From assembly GCA_025024175.1 (NCBI GenBank), contig QCXZ01000041.1, forward strand, positions 29,383,786 to 29,447,785: a stretch of 64,000 bases of DNA, read 5' to 3'. The position numbers and the translations under genes are program-made. Positions 431-56,929 of the stretch are shown one piece after another; positions within the stretch are counted from its first letter, which is position 1, and every line of letters starts with the position of its first letter. The notes under the pieces were generated by a model. That model had not been told where the DNA came from and did not search any database. It was given only the letters and a program-made list of their open reading frames with translations. Origin of the DNA: Rhyzopertha dominica. Its lineage: Eukaryota > Arthropoda > Insecta > Coleoptera > Bostrichidae.

Positions 431-837
431 CAATTGTATTACATTTTGAGTGTAATTTTATTATTACAGTATTAGCACACATACTTACTCAGTTCGGTGC
501 AGTTAAAAAATAGAGCAAAGTGTTTTATTTATAATTAACGTATCTACTGCTATTTTGCTCATACTTACGTATAATGCCTTTAACTGTACATTAATTCATT
601 AAGCTATTTATTATGATGAAAGTAAGAATTTAGGTTGGCAATGCCATCTGTCAGCATTACACTGACATGATGACAAAGCCACCTAGCTGCCTTAACGGGT
701 ACTACTTCCTAAAGGAAGTGACCTGCAGCCTGATAAATTGGCATGCAACTGCATACTTCAATTTGACATCAGGCCCCNNCGGCACTTTTTGCTGACGGGC
801 AAGAACCAACATACATAAAAATGCATGTCTATGCTGT

Positions 838-932
838 GCTGTCTACACCTCAACCAACTGCAGATAGTACTATTTCGCTGTCATTACAGCTCATCAGTGC
901 AGTTTAGGTCTAGTGTTACTAGTGTAGACAAC
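838..932 (-). ncRNA. Type I hammerhead self-cleaving ribozyme, copy A
   Basis: Read on the minus strand, the conserved core CTGATGA lies at 897-891, followed by helix II GCTGT-AATG-ACAGC and GAAA (876-873). Next come the self-complementary 8-mer TAGTACTA and the cleavage triplet ATC ending at 863. Predicted self-cleavage is between 863 and 862. Helix I is long: CTGCA pairs with TGCAG beside the core, and GTTGTCTACAC pairs with GTGTAGACAGC beyond an internal loop. This copy has about 10 extra bases (a small repeat of ACACTAG) in the helix I loop region, which could affect tertiary contacts. Confidence 0.88.
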
Positions 933-951
933 ACGGCATAGAACTGGTTTT

Positions 952-1033
952 GCTACACTAGACCTAAACTGCACTGATGAGCTGTATTGACAACGAAATA
1001 GTACTATCTGCAGTTGGTTGAGGTGTAGACAGC
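952..1033 (+). ncRNA. Type I hammerhead ribozyme, copy B (slightly damaged)
   Basis: The core CTGATGA is at 974-980 and GAAA at 995-998. Helix III is TAGTACTA (999-1006) and the cleavage triplet ATC is at 1006-1008, so cleavage is predicted after 1008. Helix II here is GCTGT/ACAAC, with one C-A mismatch compared with the other copies. The 5' strand of outer helix I is shortened by the junction with the inverted copy (CTACAC at 953-958 still pairs with GTGTAG at 1023-1028). It sits 351 nt upstream of copy C in the same orientation, so double cleavage would release a unit-length RNA. Its own activity is probably weaker than that of copy C. Confidence 0.82.
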
Positions 1034-1288
1034 ACAGCATAGACATGCATTTTTATGTATGTTGGTTCTTGCCCGTCAGCAAAAAGTGCCCTGGGGGCCT
1101 ACTTTCAAATTGAAGTATGCAGTTGCATGCCAATTTTCAGGCTGGAGGTCACTTCCTTTAGGAAGTAGTACCCGTTAAGGCAGCTAGGTGGCTTTGTCAT
1201 CATGTCAGTGTAATGCTGACAGATGGCATTGCCATCCTAAATTCTTACTTTCATCATACCATTGCTTTGGTATATAAGCAAAACCAGT

Positions 1289-1391
1289 TCTATGCCGTGT
1301 TGTCTACACTAGACCTAAACTGTACTGATGAGCTGTAATGACAGCGAAATAGTACTATCTGCAGTTGGTTGAGGTGTAGACAGCACAGCAT
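1289..1391 (+). ncRNA. Type I hammerhead self-cleaving ribozyme, copy C (best preserved)
   Basis: CTGATGA lies at 1325-1331. Helix II is a perfect GCTGT(1332-1336)-AATG-ACAGC(1341-1345), GAAA is at 1346-1349 and helix III is TAGTACTA (1350-1357). The cleavage triplet ATC is 1357-1359. Helix I beside the core is CTGTA with TGCAG, using one G-U pair. Outer helix I, from about 1289-1309 to 1374-1391, is some 18-20 bp with a single mismatch and one wobble. All core residues needed by the family are present. Short helix III is typical of ribozymes in Penelope-like elements and retrozymes, where dimers or tertiary contacts support activity. Confidence 0.9.
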
Positions 1392-1425
1392 AGACATGCA
1401 TTTCTATTTATTATGAATTATTATT

Positions 1426-2354: not shown

Positions 2355-3018
2355 TTATGCTATCGTCCGCCTAACTCCAGCTTGGGAAATTTTATTGAAA
2401 CCCTTGACAATATCTTTGGTTTTGTTTGCGGTATGTATGAATATGTTGTTTGCCTGGGTGATTTCAACATGAATTTCTTAAATATTTCTCACCCTGTGTG
2501 TGCATGTTTGGATGCATACAACTTGGTGCAAGTCTTGGATAAACCAAATAGAGTGACTGGTAACTCGAGCTTACTGATCGATCCTTTATTCGTATCTCAT
2601 TCTCTGAATGTTTCAAGGTATGGTACATGGAACTGTGACGATATTTCTGACCACAGATTGGTTTATTGTGAATTTAGTACACATAAGATTATATGCGAGC
2701 CCAAATAATGTTACTCATAAGTCTTTCAGACGCTTTGATGTCAGTGAGTTTCGGGAAAGTTTGAAATCCATTGAATAGACTAATTATTTCTCTCTTTGAT
2801 CGGCACCGGGTGGTAACGTCTAGGTTAACAAACTCCAAGACAATGTGGTGTTGCCCTGAAATCAAATGTCTCATGGGTGAACGTGATGCATCCTTACATA
2901 TATACAAAGGAAGTAATTTTCCTGAAGATTTTTCTGCATATAAGAGGTTGAGGAACTTGACTGCTAACTCTGTTAGGATGGAAAAAGGTCGTTACATAGG
3001 TACAGTTGCTTTAAGTTG
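2355..3018 (+). pseudogene. LINE endonuclease (EEP/APE domain) and linker to reverse transcriptase
   Basis: This encoded the enzyme that nicks target DNA to prime reverse transcription. Reading starts with CYRPPNSS (about 2355). The open part at 2382-2708 contains LGDFNMN, with the Asp-Phe-Asn characteristic of these endonucleases, then RVTGNS..LIDP and the catalytic-loop motif SDHRLVY. After the stop at 2706 the family resemblance continues in other frames. About 2771-3018 matches the linker (PEIK.LM.ERDA, then AYKRLRN) that precedes the reverse transcriptase in insect LINEs. At least two frame changes make it non-functional. Confidence 0.75.
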
Positions 3019-31030: not shown

Positions 31031-31577
31031 TTCCTATTTGTGTAACAATAAGTTATACTAGTGCAAACCTGAAGGGTTTTTATGACACTGTAATCCAATT
31101 GTCACATTGTAATGCTAGGTTTCCTTAAACCTTTTCTTAAAAAAATCTGATTATGTCCTCTGAATCTTGACAACTTCTTTTAGGCAACCCTACTATCTAC
31201 TATCACCTTTTTATACTTGCCAAACTCGTACTAAAGGCAGATAAAAGGTAGGCCATCTATTTTTTCTCTTTATTTATGTCGTATACTCTTCATTAGTACT
31301 ACACCTTTTGAACTAACTGATAAGGGAAATGACCACAAAAAAGTTAATGAAAAAATTTTTAATTAAAGAATAGAATTAGGCGACCGATGCGCGATGTGTC
31401 TATATAAATATTTTCTTCGTTATTATCTCATACAAAATACAAACCTGTTAGGAGATCACTAATACAAAATATGCTGGATGCTGTTGACGTAAGCGATAAA
31501 TAATAAATTTAAAGATTGTAACCGTTTAAATCAGAGTATAGACTAAATACGAATCCTAGCTGATTATTTGCATTCTT
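31031..31577. other. No gene recognised
   Basis: AT-rich spacer; no motif identified. Confidence 0.4.
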
Positions 31578-31655
31578 ATGAGCTGTAATGACAGCGAAAT
31601 AGCACTATCTGCAGTTGGTTGAGGTGTAGACAGCACAGCATAGACATGCATTTTA
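31578..31655 (+). repeat. 5'-truncated hammerhead unit, copy D
   Basis: Matches the 3' part of the ribozyme unit at 1330-1403: TATGAG in place of CTGATGAG, intact GCTGT-AATG-ACAGC helix II and GAAA, helix III TAGCACTA, cleavage triplet ATC, then the 3' strand of helix I. The 5' strand of helix I and the first bases of the core are missing, so it cannot self-cleave. It ends at ATGCATTTT like the other units. A 5' truncation with a fixed 3' end suggests reverse-transcription-based insertion. Confidence 0.8.
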
Positions 31656-36015: not shown

Positions 36016-37095
36016 CTACTTTTCTACATAATTTCCGTGAGTATTGAGGCACTTGTCATAACGCGGCACCAGTTTTTGAATACCCTCCTCATAAAATTCT
36101 GCCGCCTGACTTGTTAACCACTGTATCACAAATGTTTCGACTTCGTTATCATCTTGAAGACGCTAACCACCCAGGTGTTTCTTCAAGTGCAGGAACAAAT
36201 GGTAGTCGCTGGGCGCCAGATCAGGGCTGTATGGAGGACGATCTAGAGTTTCCCATTTAAAAGATTTGATGAGATCTTTTTGTCCGATTAGCCACATGTG
36301 GATGGGCATTGTCATGCAGCAAAACGATACCCTTACTCAACTTGCCACGTCTTTTGTTCTGGATTGCACGACGCGGATTATTCAATGTCTTACAATAAGA
36401 CGCTGCATTGATTGTCTCATTACGAGGCAGAAACTCCACTAGCAATACTCCTTTTCTGTCCCAAAAAACTGTGCAAATGATTTTCCGGACAGAAATTGTT
36501 TGCTTAAACTTCACTTTTTGGGTGATGATGATTGTCGCCATTCCATGGATTGTTGTTTCGATTCTGGTGTGACGTAGGCCACCCATGTTTCGTCACCAGT
36601 AACAATTTGGTCTAAAAAATCTTCACCTTCATTGTGGTACCGCTCAAGAAAAGTGAATGCACTGCCTAAACGTTGGGTTTTGTGCAAATCCGTCAACATT
36701 TTCGGAACCCAACGTGAACACAATTTCCAATAATTCAAGTTCTCGGTCACAATGCGATACAAAACACTACGAGAATATTGAGGAAACCAGTCGCACAAAG
36801 ATGAAATTGTAAAGCGTCTGTTTTCTCTCACCTTTTCGTTCACTTTCTGCACCAAATCTTCATTAACGACCGAAGGACGCCCACTCCGTTCTTCATCATG
36901 CACATTTGTGCGGCCATCTTTAAATGCTCTCACCCATTTCCTTACCATTCCATCACTCATAATGTTTTGTCCGTAAACTTCACAGATCTCACGATGAATA
37001 TCGATCGGTTTTACGCCTTTAGCACTAAGAAATCGTATAACAGCCCGTACTTCACAATCGGCGGGACTCACGATTGTCGAAAGCATCTTAAACAC
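36016..37095 (-). pseudogene. Mariner transposase, nearly intact
   Basis: The reading frame runs from ATG at 37095 (or, more likely, the second Met at 37086, MLSTIVSPADCEVRAV) to TAG at 36016-36018, about 350 residues and full length. It shows the N-terminal helix-turn-helix region, RWVPKML, TGDETWV (first catalytic Asp), LLHDNAHPH (second Asp) and PPYSPDLAPSDYHLF (third Asp), that is, a D,D34D mariner. Two lesions are visible: loss of one base in an A-run near 36513, which shifts the frame after SSPKK, and a TAG after KKHLGG near 36170 where the family usually has Gln. Both look recent. Confidence 0.9.
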
Positions 37096-38526: not shown

Positions 38527-39985
38527 TACGTTTCGGCCGTTCTTGATGGGCCTTCCTCAGGCGTGTTGTTTTTATTTTGTCTGAAAGTTTTGTGATTGAG
38601 TACATGTAACATATTAAAAACGTATACATATTTAAAAATAAATTCACAATTTTATGTTAAAATTTGATATTAAAATTTTGGTCTACAAATACTGTTTTGG
38701 TATAAGTGTAAAATACCTTAACCGTTCATGTGACCTGCACATTCTGTCATCTTGGCTTCATTTGTGTGTATCTTGTACCTATTATCTCGATTTCGTCCTC
38801 TATTGTTTTTTTGCTCGTCATCCCGTCAGTGTCATCTACCGTGGCGTTGTTGTCAGCCTTTGTGTTTTGTCCGGAGATATGTATGTATGTATTTTGAGTT
38901 GTGTTAGTGTTTTTCTTTAAATAATGGTGTTGTAAATACGGCTTAGATTTTGTATATCTGTTCGGTCATTTACGCAGTCTTTCAGGTTCTGTTGGATGTG
39001 TATCATCTCTAATATTATTGTTTTTTGTGTGTGTTGTTCTTTCGCGATTATTTTGGTGTTGTTAAAGTTGAAATGGTGATTATGTTGTTGCTCGTGTTTT
39101 TTCAGCGCAGTTAAATTATCGTTTTGTTGATGTTGTTTTATTCTATAAGATATTGTTTGGTTTGTCCGATGTATTGCTTATGGCAATTTTCGCAGGATAT
39201 GCTGTATACTGTATGTGTCGTGTAGTCTTTTGGAGTTTTTGTTTTGAGTTTTGTGTGAAATTGTTTGGTGGTGTTTATTGGTTTATTTGTTATGTTTATA
39301 TTGTGAGGTTTTAGAATTTTTTTGTAGTGTTTGGGACAATGAGGGAATATATGGCAATGACAAGTATGTTTTCTCTGTTTCTGTGTTCTGGTTTTTGTGT
39401 CTTGAGTTATGTCTTAGGTTGTTGTATATTGCGTCGGTTGTGCGATTTATTACGTTCTTGATAAGACCTATTGGGTATCCGTTGTTTGTGAGTAATTGTG
39501 TCGCTTGTATAATTGTTTCCTGTCTGTAGTCTGGGCTAGTGAGTTTTATGGCCCTTTCTATTGTATTCCTCACTACCATGCGTTTTTGATTGTAGGGGTA
39601 GTTTGAATTTAAATGCAAATAACGTCCTGACGATGTGGGTTTTGTGTACCATTTTGTCTTAATTCTGTTTCCTGTTCTGATTAATGTAATGTCCAAAAAA
39701 TGTATAGTGTTGTTGCTTTCTATTGTTAATTGTAGTTGGTTATTGTAGCTATTAAAAATATCTTGTGTGGCTTTAGTTTTGGTTTTTTAAATTATCGAAA
39801 AACAAGTCGTCGACGTATCGTCCGTAGAAGTGTATGTAGTCCGTTTTTTCTAGTATGTTTTTCTCTAAGTCTTCCATGACTATTTCTGCAATATTGCTTG
39901 ATATAGGGCTACCCATGACTACTCCATTTTTTGTTTATAGAAATCGGTTTTATATTCAAAATAATTTGTATTTAAAATAAAAACC
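38527..39985 (-). pseudogene. Penelope-like element: C-terminal half of reverse transcriptase plus GIY-YIG endonuclease
   Basis: On the minus strand from 39985 one reads FEYKTDFYKQK, then a MGSPISSNIAE...EDLEKN block. The catalytic motif RYVDDLFF follows (YVDD at 39817-39806). An open 137-codon frame (39696-39283) begins DITLIRTGNRIKTKWYTKPT and ends with SLPYIPSLSQTLQKN. After stops comes SISCENCHKQYIGQTKQYL (GIY-YIG, about 39200-39155), then HFNFNNTKII and EMIHI. About 38560-38527 carries CCTGAGGAAGGCC and GGCCGAAACGTA, a phrase typical of Penelope-like ends. The 5' part of the reverse transcriptase is missing, as in a 5'-truncated insertion. Several frameshifts, so inactive. Confidence 0.85.
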
Positions 39986-40711
39986 TAGCAGTGCCGTCCG
40001 ACAGTATACTCCGCATAAATCATTTTGCACTGTCCATCATGTCCATCACCGTAACCTCAAAATATAAATTTTCACACATGCTACAGTCACATGCTTTTAT
40101 GGGTTCAGACGTCAAGCACGTGGATGAATGTTAACAAGTGGTCCATTGTATTTTTCTGATCGTACGTTAAAGAAGCGTTTGTAGATTGGGTTATTTGCCA
40201 AATGGTTGTTCATACTGTCTGCATTTATTTATTTATCTTCTACAGTTTTGCAAGTCTGACAAGATTTTGACATAACAATATATTTTTCATGTATCAAATA
40301 TTGTAAACTGGTTCATTTACTCGAAGTGAATATTTAGTTTGTAACTTTTCCAAAGATTAAACCCCACAAAGTCCAACATTGAACACTTTATTAACAAATG
40401 TGTAATTGGCAAAGCGCCTTCAGCTTCTAATAGCCAGCATCAGTGCCTGCTAGTAAGAGAATCACAAAATAATTTAAATTAAAAGTGACGTCAAGTTAAA
40501 AATAAGCAGTCTTAACTTCAAATAAAAGTAGCCTGCACGCCAACAACACAAACATGAATTCAATGATCCGACAAATAATTTATTATAGAGTAGGACAACT
40601 AAAATGATAAAAATCATTCAAAATTTAGTTACGGTTATGATTTGTTAATGTTTGTTAATAACAAAGATAAAAATTTATAACATACAAGTCAAGGTGCATA
40701 CCAATTTGGCA
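39986..40711. other. No gene recognised
   Basis: AT-rich spacer between the truncated Penelope-like element and a hammerhead unit. No repeat links the two. Confidence 0.4.
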
Positions 40712-40937
40712 GAATACAGATCACTTCCTTTAGGAAGTAATTTCTACCAAGGCAACTAGGTGGCTTTGTCATCATGTCAGTGTATTGCTGATAGATGGCA
40801 TTGCTATCTAATTTTCTTCTACCATCATACCAAGTCTTTGGTATATAGGCAAAATACACTGACGAGCTGTAATGACAGCGAAACAGATCTGTCTATAGTC
40901 CGTTATGGTGCAGACAGCATAACATACAGATGCATTT
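40712..40937 (+). mobile_element. Hammerhead-ribozyme unit, copy E (divergent single unit)
   Basis: Aligns with 1150-1400: CACTTCCTTTAGGAAGTA, then GGTGGCTTTGTCATCATGTC (20 bases identical), GCTGA.AGATGGCATTGC and TTTGGTATATA. It then carries a hammerhead and ends at GATGCATTTT as other copies do. The body is about 80% alike by eye. It is shortened between the TATA-like word and the ribozyme core, so much of outer helix I is lost. No clear target duplication. Confidence 0.85.
40840..40918 (+). ncRNA. Hammerhead ribozyme variant, copy E
   Basis: The core is CTGACGA (40859-40865; C at the variable position is allowed), helix II is a perfect GCTGT-AATG-ACAGC and GAAA is at 40880-40883. Helix III is the self-complementary CAGATCTG (40884-40891), with cleavage triplet GTC (40891-40893). 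Helix III is stronger than in copies A-C, and GTC is the classical triplet. Compared with copy C, helix III changed at paired positions yet stays self-complementary, which suggests selection on structure. The first helix I base pairs next to the core are weak (TACA against TATA), so cleavage is uncertain. Confidence 0.75.
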
Positions 40938-41889
40938 TAATTATACGAGTAACATACCAGTTAATTTTCATTTAATACGGTCTAACAGCTACATTTTAAT
41001 AAAAAAAATTAGCGTCAACATTTTAATGTGCATGTAGCCCTAGAGCAGATCCTGGATTTACTAGATTGGTTGTGTGGTTTTTCTCCTAACAATAGTTAGC
41101 TGTTAACAAAGCAAAATAAAAAAAGTTTTGGAGGTTTACACGATTGAAAGTTGTAACAGAAAAATTGAATTGGTTAATTCAACTTTATCTACGTAATGGA
41201 AACAAAATATAATAATGAAAGAAAAGAAATCTTAAAAATAAGATTTTGTGAGTATTTCTAAAGAGTATATCGAATGAATAATGTAGTTGAATCTGCAGTT
41301 TATATATAGTTTATATAATATATGGCCATTAAAGGTGATTCTTAATCGTAATTAAATGTTGGATAAATTTATTACTTCAACTAGATTTAGTACTCCTAAG
41401 GCTATAATTTGTCGGTCAAATTACTATTGATACTGATAATGTAAGTTGTAAGTATCCACAAAGTGAACAAAAACATTGTAGTACCTTGGAATTTAATTTG
41501 TACCTGCATTTGGAATTAAAGGTGATTAGATTAGATAACAAGAAATTAAGGAAAACTGGTTATTGTGTTACCAAAAAAAAATAACTTACAGGTATTTATC
41601 TCAATTCAAAATAAACAATTGTTTGTTTAGCCAGTTCACTGAGAATCACATGACAATCACATAGTAATCAACATATGAAATATAACACATTATCTTAGCT
41701 TATGTATTTACGCACTGTGAGTAAAGAAAGAACATACAAAAATATAAAATTGTAGACAGTAATTATTATCATACTGCTTAACGCACTAGAGTTTTTTTAG
41801 TTTTGATTGAGACAGCGCAGCTTAAAATATTAATTCAACTTTTGCGCCTCCTGCACAGACACTGCACACTTTACATCTTGCAAGAACGT
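40938..41889. other. No gene recognised
   Basis: AT-rich spacer, no motif identified. Confidence 0.4.
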
Positions 41890-54164: not shown

Positions 54165-55184
54165 TTGGTAACGTTTGCAGCTCCATATGGAAGGTATAAA
54201 TTTAAAAGGTTACCATTTTGGAATTTCTATTGCTCTAAAAAAATTTTATAGAACTTCTAGGAGTGAAAATTTATATTGATGACATAATTTTTGCAAAGTC
54301 ACAAAAAGAACGTGACACAATTTTAAAAAAGGTTTTAGACAGAGCCAGGCAAAAAGGAGTACATTTTTTAAATAAAAGTGTAAGTTCAACNAAAAGAGCA
54401 TTAAATATGTAGGTCATATTATAATATCAGATCCAGAAAAATTGAGTCAATAAAAAACATTCCATAGCCAGAAAATGTAGATAGTGTGTTGCGCTTTTTG
54501 GGAATGGTTACTTATCTCTCTAAATTTATACCAAACCTGTCACGGAATACTTACAATTTAAGACAGTTGTGTAAGAAAGAAGTTATTTTTCAATGGACCA
54601 AACACCGTGAAGATTAATTTATAAATCTAAAACTATTGCTATCAAGTACGCCAGCAAAGGAATTCTTTGATATAAATAAGCCAATAAGTTTGTCAGTAGG
54701 TAGTTCCAAAAATGGAATGGGTGCAGTTATATTACAAAATAATCAACCAATTGCATATGCATCCAAAGCAATGACCGATGCCCAGACCAGATATGCACAA
54801 TTAGAAAGGGAATCGTTAGTTATTGTGTTTGGATGTCAAAGATTCCATCATTATATATATGGAACACACATACAAGTAGAAACAGTTCATAAGCCATTAG
54901 AGGCAATATTTAAAAAACCATTAAATCAATGCCCACTACGTTTACAAATATTATTAATATCTTTAAAATATGATCTAAATGTAAAGTATACACCGAGAAA
55001 ATTCTTGAAAATAGCTGATGCTTTATCTAGAGCTTTTGATCCAAAGAACAAGTTCTGTGTCGTAGCGGAAGATTTGGAACAACATGTTTGTTTAATAAAT
55101 GTAACAAATGGCATAAGTGACCAACAACTTGCCACAATTAGGAAGGAAACTGAAACAGATCCCGAATTAAAAAAAAATTATTGA
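54165..55184 (+). pseudogene. gypsy pol fragment: reverse transcriptase and RNase H
   Basis: 54165 onward reads LVTFAAPYGRYKFKRLPFGI (reverse transcriptase), then breaks. YIDDI (54272-54286) is the catalytic motif. A frameshifted block with LRFLGMVTYLSKFIPNLSRN (about 54490-54550) is the connection region. RNase H is open at 54636-55184. Two of its acidic positions are changed: VGSS where the family has Asp after Val, and TVHKPL where it has Asp before His. The Glu in YAQLERE is kept. So RNase H would be inactive even without the frameshifts and the stops near 54410 and 54618. Confidence 0.85.
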
Positions 55185-55862
55185 AAAAGGGTGGCCTAAT
55201 TCCAAAGAAAACCTAAACAATTTACTTAAACGTTACTGGAAATTTAGAGAAATAATAACAGGTATAAAAGGAGTTATCACAAAAGGCACTCAAATAATAA
55301 GTCCAAAGTCATAACGTAAGGAAGTGCACTAGCATGCTCTAACGTACATACTAACGTGTTCATTACAATCATTTAAGTTTTAATAAAACAACATTGCGAA
55401 CAGATGAGCTTATTTATTGGCCATATATAAAAAATGATATAAAAATATGATTAGAAATTGTGAAACTTGTACAAGGTTCAAAAATCAACAATCCAAAGAG
55501 CCAGCGTTCAATCGTGAACTACCAAACCGCCCCTGGCAATATGTTGCAGCTGACATGTTTCATATGGAAAATAAAAATTTTCTATTAGTTGTTGACATGT
55601 ACTCCAAATATCCCGAGATCATTTGTCTCAGAAATGATACTACTAGTTCAAATATAATAGAAGAATTAAAAGCCATTTTCTCCAGTCATGAAAAACCAGA
55701 TTTATTGTATACGGACAATGGTCCACAATTTGATAAGGGCAGCTTTTGAAATTTTTTAACAGAATGAGAAATACATCATCAAACAAGCAGTCCTTATTAT
55801 TAACGTCGATGATATACTTTAATGGGTTAACAGGCATAAGAAGAAATGAAAAACTATTGCCA

Positions 55863-55933
55863 GCCTTGACCGAAATTTGAACTCGGGACCTTTTGAACAC
55901 TAGTCAAACGCTATATCACTGAGCTATCAGGGT
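55863..55933 (-). pseudogene. tRNA-like sequence (SINE head), left arm
   Basis: On the minus strand, D stem GCTC pairs imperfectly with TAGC (GAGC in the other arm). Anticodon stem TTTGA/TCAAA has loop CTAGTGT, and T stem CCGAG/TTCGG has loop TTCAAAT. The B box GAGTTCAAATT is good. Length is 71 nt, as in the other arm. Confidence 0.65.
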
Positions 55934-56046: not shown

Positions 56047-56117
56047 GCCCTGATAGCTCAGTGATAGAGCGTTTGACTAGTGTTCAAAAAGTCCTGAGAT
56101 CAAATCTCGGTGAAGGC
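56047..56117 (+). pseudogene. tRNA-like sequence (SINE head), right arm
   Basis: A 71-nt cloverleaf can be drawn. Acceptor GCCCTGA/TGAAGGC has 5 of 7 pairs. D arm is GCTC-AGTGATA-GAGC, anticodon arm TTTGA-CTAGTGT-TCAAA (anticodon AGT) and T arm CTGAG-ATCAAAT-CTCGG. The A-box TAGCTCAGTGATAGAGC and B-box GAGATCAAATC are suited to RNA polymerase III. Duplication in inverse orientation and the surrounding target repeats mark it as a SINE head rather than a tRNA gene. Confidence 0.65.
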
Positions 56118-56929
56118 TTGTTCATTTCTTCTTAAGCCTCTTAACCCATGAAAATATATGATCGACGCTAATTAAAAACAAATTCAGGAAATAATTAAGT
56201 CCTTATTATGCTGAATCAAATGGATTTATAGAACTTAATTTACAACCCATACAGAAACTGTTAAAAAAGCATGCACGATAAAAAAATCTTTCTATTTCGG
56301 AATATAGGAATACACCAATAAGCTCCAACTTTCCATCCCCCACTGAGTTACTGCTTGGGAGAAAAATTAAAGACTTCTGCCAATATTCAATAAAAAATTA
56401 ATGCCTAAATATAATATTAAAAATTACACTAAAGTATTATGTGATAGGCATCAAAACAATTAATGAATAGCACTAATAACATACTACTGCCAGATTTTCA
56501 GGAAGGAGATAAGGTAGTAGTATATGATCACATTAAAAAATATGGCAACCAGCCAAAATTAAAACAAAAGATGATAATAGACCGCGTTGTCACATTATAA
56601 TGCGGAATGACAAGGAATATTGTAGAAATACAAAATTTTTAAAAAAATGTAATCCGGCTCAGAAAAATATTAATGATATTATGTTTGACTTTAGCAGAGA
56701 CAAAGAAAGTGACACTGATCCTGACAATCACTGTGAACATAACAATCGCAAAAATGTTAGATGTACAAAAAGCGGTAGTTACCGTCTCATTTAAAAGATT
56801 ATGTAGAATATTAGGTGAGATACTTTGTTTCTTGTTATTTTGTTAATTGTACTCAGCATTTCATTTTGTGTAGTGATTGTTTATACTTACCTGTTTTTTT
56901 TCTATTTAATGTTTAATTGAAAAAGGAGA

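Follow-up and report, generated by a model that had tools for sequence, protein, structure and literature searches.

The window analyzed here, a stretch of 64,000 nucleotides from the beetle Rhyzopertha dominica, carries near its start a short insertion with hammerhead ribozymes on both strands. The question raised by this locus is how a unit with no long reading frame came to be inserted head to head and in tandem in a single event, and whether this is an accident of one site or the usual way in which the unit moves.

Layout of the insertion and its hammerheads

Alignment of the repeats bore out what the initial annotation had read at 604..1416, namely a 787-bp insertion (617–1403) within a 13-bp target duplication. 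Its GC content is 43%, and its three hammerheads, all of type I, are arranged in units of 351 nt in the order minus, plus and partial plus (Table 1). The proposed 351-nt spacing of the plus-strand units was recovered from direct repeats at 953–1060 and 1304–1411 (95% identity), and the inverted arms were 96% (735–916 versus 955–1136) and 98% (612–736 versus 1134–1258) identical. Unit positions are numbered from u1, window position 1009, directly 3' of the predicted cleavage point. The final five bases of the left duplication, TATGA, are also found in the unit, and this match is priming microhomology. The outer end of the plus arm lies at GCATTT, and the BLAST alignment runs on from there into the target, to u52.

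Table 1. Features of the insertion and of related elements, in window coordinates; sites A and B are the two unit positions at which outer ends fall
Feature	Position	Strand	Remarks
Left target-site duplication	604..616		CTATTTATTATGA
Minus arm, 343 nt	612..954	-	outer 3' end ~u250 (site B); inner 5' end u269
Minus-arm hammerhead, core to cleavage site	863..897	-	predicted cut 863/862; Rfam HH9 below threshold at 843-913
Head-to-head junction of the arms	953..954		overlap of 2 nt, CT
Plus arm, 451 nt (one 351-nt unit + 100 nt)	953..1403	+	inner 5' end u296; outer 3' end ~u44 (site A)
First plus-unit hammerhead	974..1008	+	predicted cut 1008/1009; helix II mismatch (ACAAC); Rfam HH9 below threshold at 958-1028
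Second plus-unit hammerhead	1325..1359	+	predicted cut 1359/1360; Rfam HH9 below threshold at 1309-1379
Right target-site duplication	1404..1416		CTATTTATTATGA
Second family member, 80 bp, 95% identical	31575..31654	+	5'-truncated within the ribozyme core (CTTATGA); 3' end again GCATTT (site A)
Penelope-like reverse transcriptase ORF fragment	39283..39786	-	query for the PLE families of the genome; a relative, outside the insertion; no Pfam match of its own
Candidate left target duplication of third member	40678..40689		TAACATACAAGT; 11/12 equal to 40950-40961
Third, diverged member, in two pieces (81% and 77%)	about 40692..40941	+	3' end near site A
Candidate right target duplication of third member	40950..40961		TAACATACCAGT

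All three of the hammerheads that had been reported were found again. The pattern CTGATGA, 8–35 nt, CGAAA occurred in the whole window only at 974(+), 1325(+) and 897(-). A strict type I descriptor (helices I, II and III, core and NUH triplet) matched two of these, 1325+ and 897-, and gave no match in 100 simulated windows; the hammerhead at 974 missed it by the mismatch in helix II. At the gathering threshold, Rfam returned no hammerhead anywhere in the window. Below threshold, Hammerhead_HH9 was matched at all three sites with 28.0, 24.2 and 18.5 bits against a cut-off of 52 (E values 1.5e-4, 2.5e-3 and 0.17), so that the ribozyme calls rest on the descriptor and on conservation, not on a curated Rfam hit. 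As to conservation, complete cores were intact in 123 of 126 units from 40 loci, the window locus included and sister units counted apart. The variation among young copies was 1.1% in the ribozyme core and 1.3% in the rest of the unit (significance not computed), which is no clear sign of selection on the core among these copies.

Rfam matches to MIR6274 and mir-279 were set aside as products of the long inverted repeat. The genome also contains a separate, scattered hammerhead family, RF00163, with 22 of the 25 matches listed lying over the cut-off. The four of these 25 that were inspected (L091–L094) were single motifs with no visible surrounding element and no similarity to the 351-nt unit or to the PLE protein of family F2 (see below), and the RF00163 loci were dropped. 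A search for the hammerhead core in viral contigs gave 0 matches, and the insertion matched no plasmid.

The insertion lacks coding capacity: the longest ORF overlapping 604–1416 is 50 aa, and the longest stop-free run on the circular unit is 58 aa. With animal non-LTR retrozymes, as characterized in the available text of PMC7229834, it shares the type I hammerhead, repeats of about 150–450 bp in dimers to multimers, a GC content below 50%, target duplications of more than 4 bp and the lack of a long ORF. The insertion is a non-autonomous animal (non-LTR) retrozyme, a new member of that kind. Although its integration resembles that of Penelope-like elements (PLEs), the unit is not itself a PLE, since it has no ORF above 50 aa; PLEs encode a reverse transcriptase and a GIY-YIG endonuclease, whereas the retrozyme has 351 nt, no long ORF and a type I hammerhead with helix III. 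The unit contains a TATATAAG box (window 1271–1278, u263–270), possibly an internal promoter, and the minus arm of the window insertion starts just past it.

Two further family copies, not mentioned in the initial annotation, were found in the window. The ribozyme of the 80-bp copy is, judging from its truncated core, probably dead. The diverged member at 40692–40941 is without about 37 nt, which form the 5' strand of the extended helix I; according to an alignment read by eye, it has a compensatory change in a helix III pair (U-A to C-G) and a core change at the free position N7.

Outer ends, arms and template of the family

The suggestion that the genome be searched for copies keeping the core was followed in the 479-Mb assembly (138 contigs), where a 32-mer of the unit had 3,269 matches with at most 2 mismatches (1644 + 1625) and the reversed control had none. 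These matches and the intact cores rule out the refuting case, named in the initial annotation, of a genome in which the core is kept nowhere else. The first sample consisted of the 40 best-scoring loci, including that of the window. Since these were picked by score, a second sample was taken blind to arrangement, as the first 20 consecutive exact 32-mer places on one contig (C1). The arms reached up to about five units, the longest being about 1740 nt (L021).

The results showed that 49 of the 60 mapped loci were head to head (32/40 in the best-scoring and 17/20 in the blind sample). The minus-plus-plus order, which had been called an unusual product, is thus the normal product of the family. 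Of the 32 head-to-head loci in the best-scoring sample, 30 paired one outer end at site A (u45–55) with the other at site B (u232–258), A being on the left in 17 and B in 13, and in the blind sample the A/B pairing was seen in 15 of 17 (counted from the listed rows). Independent use of two sites would predict A/B in about half of the loci; the observed 45/49 differs from independent choice with p = 4e-10, and the blind sample alone with p = 0.001. Over all 60 loci, 55 outer ends fell at u43–59, 52 at u237–259 and only 2 elsewhere. The rule was broken by four of the 49 two-armed loci (L015, L019, L075 and L077). Outer ends at two fixed positions, one per arm, argue for priming from both target strands, and the same ends show that random template switching, raised in the initial annotation, is not the best explanation.

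One-armed loci made up 8/40 of the best-scoring sample, where all ended at A (the three-piece L031 being counted here), and 3/20 of the blind sample, where one ended at A and two at B. As judged by first and last segments, none of the 40 best-scoring loci was tail to tail; L031 has an internal tail-to-tail piece. L031 and the PLE locus L064 consist of at least three segments with changing orientation or a break, perhaps as a result of template jumps or nested events. The median arm length was 507 nt from A and 286 nt from B, and the distance between the two sites in the retrozyme is 154–197 nt. When six near-identical units were folded as circles, site A was predicted to form the UUUU loop of a 7-bp hairpin; B could be located in five of these predicted folds, each time within an unpaired linker of 16 nt. 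The idea that A and B are specially close in the predicted fold was rejected, as their graph distance was 30 and the median from A was 31–32 (five units).

The predicted cleavage point was crossed by 62 of 69 arms, at least twice in 43 of them. The proposals of a single insertion event and of a multimeric RNA template were upheld. Units differed by a median of 0.41% within the same arm, 0.42% between opposite arms of a locus and 2.27% between different loci (means 0.97%, 1.20% and 2.43%, respectively). The arms of a locus agreed in 311 of 315 comparisons made over 14 variable positions. When at least one arm carried the minor allele, the agreement was 31/35, as compared with a mean of 6.8% and a maximum of 24% for shuffled arms. 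With whole arms pooled, the contrast was weaker (1.75% for opposite arms, 2.66% for arms of different loci); the observed mean was reached in 0 of 10,000 arm permutations, and the own plus arm was the closest of 26 in 14 cases. The variant comparisons used 26 and 29 of the 32 two-armed loci, those without comparable sites being dropped, as were the third segment of L010 (a separate 60-nt piece) and, in the unit-distance and cleavage-crossing counts, arms shorter than 60 nt. The low distance between opposite arms and their shared variants indicate that both arms were copied from a single RNA or from several RNAs with a common source. The simplest such template would be a covalent circle. Some loci have more than two units in each arm, e.g. 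1011 and 1214 nt in L011.

Flanking repeats exceeded the 95% level of mispaired flanks in 31/40 best-scoring and 14/20 blind loci. Exact repeats of at least 9 nt were present at 42 of the 60 loci and absent from 18; they were 80% AT, differed in sequence between loci and were mostly 14 (18 loci) or 13 nt (12 loci) long, with three loci each at 15, 12, 10 and 9 nt. One retrozyme copy (L055) sits within a PLE, and its insertion site could be compared with eight PLE relatives. Four of these (L049, L050, L051 and L053) read through the site with an overlap of 8–13 nt, as would be expected if an empty site had been duplicated; of the others, L054 had an overlap of 4 nt, L057 a gap, and L052 and L056 matched on one side only.

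At the central junctions, an overlap of at least 2 nt was found in 72% of 50 joins, compared with 25% of 200 simulated ones. Most retrozyme junctions were asymmetric, L016 and L029 being nearly symmetric, and their positions varied between loci, with five locus pairs alike within 5 nt on both sides. The junctions of L011/L013, L012/L047 and L025/L075 were exactly identical; these loci differ in outer ends or target duplications, and in two of the three pairs A and B have changed places at the outer ends. Such shared junctions might, we conjecture, mark microhomology hot spots. Of the 109 inner ends, 17 lay at u237–259, where 7.1 were expected (p 7e-4, in a region chosen after the data were seen); as a conjecture, this excess could reflect one copy halting at the start site of the other. 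Neither this excess nor the exact shared junctions would follow from a simple two-primer model, and both count against it. Only 1/109 inner ends fell at the cleavage point (u345–u8), against 4.7 expected, and cleaved linear monomers are therefore not the usual template. There was no excess of inner ends at the candidate transcription start, u285–320 (14/109, 11.2 expected).

Penelope-like elements of the same genome

The PLE fragment of the window, used as a query, gave 4671 genomic candidates, of which 150 matches were scored. Among these 150, all 14 pairs of ORFs found by eye on opposite strands within 5 kb were head to head. Seven head-to-head PLE copies had their ends worked out, and in each (7/7) one arm carried a tail of about 36 nt and the other arm carried none; the target duplications of these copies were 12–15 bp. 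The tail/no-tail state was seen in six F1 loci (C64:33.82M, C43:2.82M, C137:34.9M, C64:25.79M, C53:21.29M and C64:49.79M), and for C53:21.29M and C64:49.79M it was predicted before the ends were computed and held for both. F2 (L069, L070) comprises a minus arm plus a tandem in which two 812-aa ORFs are intact; its duplication measures 14 bp, and only one of its ends bears the tail. The 812-aa ORF had no Pfam match to a reverse transcriptase or GIY-YIG domain; a homologue of 36% identity, aligned over 99%, has RVT_1 and GIY-YIG. Relatives of a PLE protein of this genome include Coccinella septempunctata proteins among those of other insects.

The retrozyme thus has the same features of two-strand integration, head-to-head copies and two start sites, as the PLEs of its genome. 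Its start sites are much further apart than theirs (154–197 nt versus about 36 nt). None of the PLE families compared resembled the retrozyme unit in sequence: the retrozyme unit and the F2 PLE shared only words of 10–11 nt, which is the chance level, and against 20 PLE loci (L049–L068) the unit matched only the retrozyme copies lying in L049 and L055. Hammerhead motifs in L049–L068 were likewise confined to these two copies, and no hammerhead was found in L069 by an Rfam search at E values up to 1. Some F1 junctions were nearly symmetric, and one F1 copy (C64:33817839-33824237; L059, L058) is an almost symmetric 4.7-kb palindrome with arms 98.7% identical, as if both strands had been copied up to one 5' point.

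A proposed two-primer route and its alternatives

We propose, with a probability of about 0.8, that both 3' overhangs of the target serve a PLE reverse transcriptase as primers, at two fixed internal sites of one multimeric, probably circular, retrozyme RNA. The hammerhead would cleave transcripts of the 351-nt units, and the products would probably be circularised. A Penelope-like reverse transcriptase/endonuclease would cut AT-rich DNA with a stagger, leaving 3' overhangs that, going by the duplications, should be about 13 nt long. Both 3' ends would then prime on one retrozyme RNA, one at site A (u~45–48) and the other at site B (u~239–250), and each polymerase would pass along the RNA, usually beyond the ribozyme cleavage point and often repeatedly. 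Where the two cDNAs meet, a few bases of microhomology would join them into a head-to-head minus-plus array between target duplications. The two fixed start sites, one per arm, the head-to-head order, the duplications, the multimeric template, the variants shared by the arms and the anatomy of the PLEs were seen directly; from them we infer a covalent circle as the template, the PLE protein as the agent and two subunits of one complex as the source of both start sites. With less assurance, we lean towards a broader view, in which one circle is copied simultaneously from both 3' overhangs, with a start site dedicated to each strand, as the normal route for PLEs and animal retrozymes alike. If true, this route accounts for head-to-head PLEs and their optional tail.

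LINE-1 twin priming resembles this scheme, as both target strands prime and the 5' part is inverted, with target duplications, as here. The second start of LINE twin priming lies wherever microhomology permits, a minority of insertions is affected, and the template is a linear poly(A) RNA. Were the retrozyme RNA inserted by a LINE endonuclease and reverse transcriptase, with the second strand sometimes priming internally and so inverting the 5' part, the same head-to-head order and target duplications would be obtained, and a degraded LINE endonuclease-like reading, made by eye, is present at about 2400–2760 (+) of the window. We regard this origin as improbable, since the second start is fixed in the retrozyme (52 ends at u237–259), two arms are the rule (49/60) and not the exception, and the paired-end rule is directly visible (7/7) in the PLEs of the genome, which is the class of element compared here. 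It is, in our estimate, quite improbable that a single primer sufficed and that one cDNA folded back or switched template to make the inverted arm: fold-back would put the second outer end at random, and in 45/49 loci this end keeps to the other of the two start sites; moreover, retrozyme junctions are mostly asymmetric. The near-symmetric junctions of some F1 PLEs and of retrozymes L016 and L029 fit such a fold-back, and self-priming has been proposed for the inverted repeats with palindromic junctions of rotifer Penelope (PMC3846280).

A linear multimeric transcript of an array could also serve as the template for the same two-primer integration, the hammerhead being irrelevant to mobility; this overlaps with the two-primer reading favoured above in all but the circle. 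Multi-unit arrays do exist (up to about 1740 nt in L021), a linear multimer from one array could likewise account for the near identity of units in the two arms, and unprocessed RNA was used by the Anolis PLE in vitro (PMC11167929). The intact core in 123/126 units, the compensatory substitution in helix III of the diverged copy and loci such as L011, where both arms are longer than two units, nevertheless favour the circle, as does the abundance of similar-sized animal retrozymes as circles in other species (PMC7229834), and we hold the linear template to be rather unlikely. Long palindromes are a known assembly hazard, and palindromic chimaeric reads or later inversions, with arms made alike by gene conversion, could in principle imitate the structure. 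An assembly error, which had been named as a refutation of the trimer, is very unlikely, given that dozens of loci share this anatomy while differing in their target duplications; the imperfect arms (95–98%), the fixed outer ends and the equal same-arm and opposite-arm distances likewise leave very little room for an artefact at the DNA level.

The link to retrozymes and Penelope elements made in the initial annotation was thereby strengthened, as the insertion has the features of retrozymes and the PLEs of the genome share its anatomy. For animal retrozymes, PLEs had been proposed as strong mobilisation candidates (PMC7229834, Cervera and de la Pena 2020), and according to the relevant part of a 2020 review no conserved motif in them reveals the autonomous mover (PMC7761336). 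The animal retrozymes of PMC7229834 are described in its available text as tandem copies, and the word 'inverted' is absent from its main text; insertions with two arms head to head, a pair of fixed start sites and a template shared by the arms are features seen here and not part of that description. Schistosome W elements are, like the present family, satellite-like repeats, some with type I hammerheads and possible target duplications, and differ in that no head-to-head arrangement is described in the available portion of their account (PMC8490949). No report of head-to-head hammerhead insertions or of the one-per-arm rule was found in the literature searched, from which subscription papers were mostly absent.

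As far as the available text of the two studies goes (PMC3846280, PMC11167929), the retrozyme shares with Penelope/Poseidon PLEs the head-to-head inverted copies, partial tandems, target duplications and internal starts, and we count their tail on one inverted end as a further likeness. The copies of rotifer Penelope have inverted pLTRs, are mostly head to head with 8–10 bp duplications and carry the tail on one inverted end; self-priming on an antisense template was suggested for them (PMC3846280). In the in vitro experiments covered by that part of PMC11167929, purified PLE protein from Anolis cleaved both target strands and extended each of them, with a preference for AT-rich DNA; synthesis began at two internal sites that flank the tail, unprocessed RNA was the main substrate, and ribozyme mutants were still inserted. 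The start sites of the Anolis PLE are reported as alike on both strands, whereas here the strands use different sites; the one-per-arm start rule thus goes beyond those findings.

What is new is an integration signature common to the retrozyme and PLEs, consisting of two primers, two fixed start sites and one source RNA, which in this one genome is readable in many copies and matches the genome's own PLEs. The signature ties retrozymes to the PLE machinery, a link that had earlier only been proposed. It also supplies, for the PLE tail, a one-per-strand rule, and it allows a genomic test of whether both strands copy the same RNA.

Other mobile-element and tRNA-like sequences were noted in the window. 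A Mariner/Mos1-type transposase fragment with HTH_48 and HTH_32 matches lies at 36511–37095 (-), and the RNase H part of an LTR-retrotransposon-like polyprotein at 54618–55184 (+). Two tRNA-like sequences, both over the Rfam tRNA cut-off, stand in opposite orientation with 113 bp between them, at 55862–55933 (-) and 56047–56118 (+).
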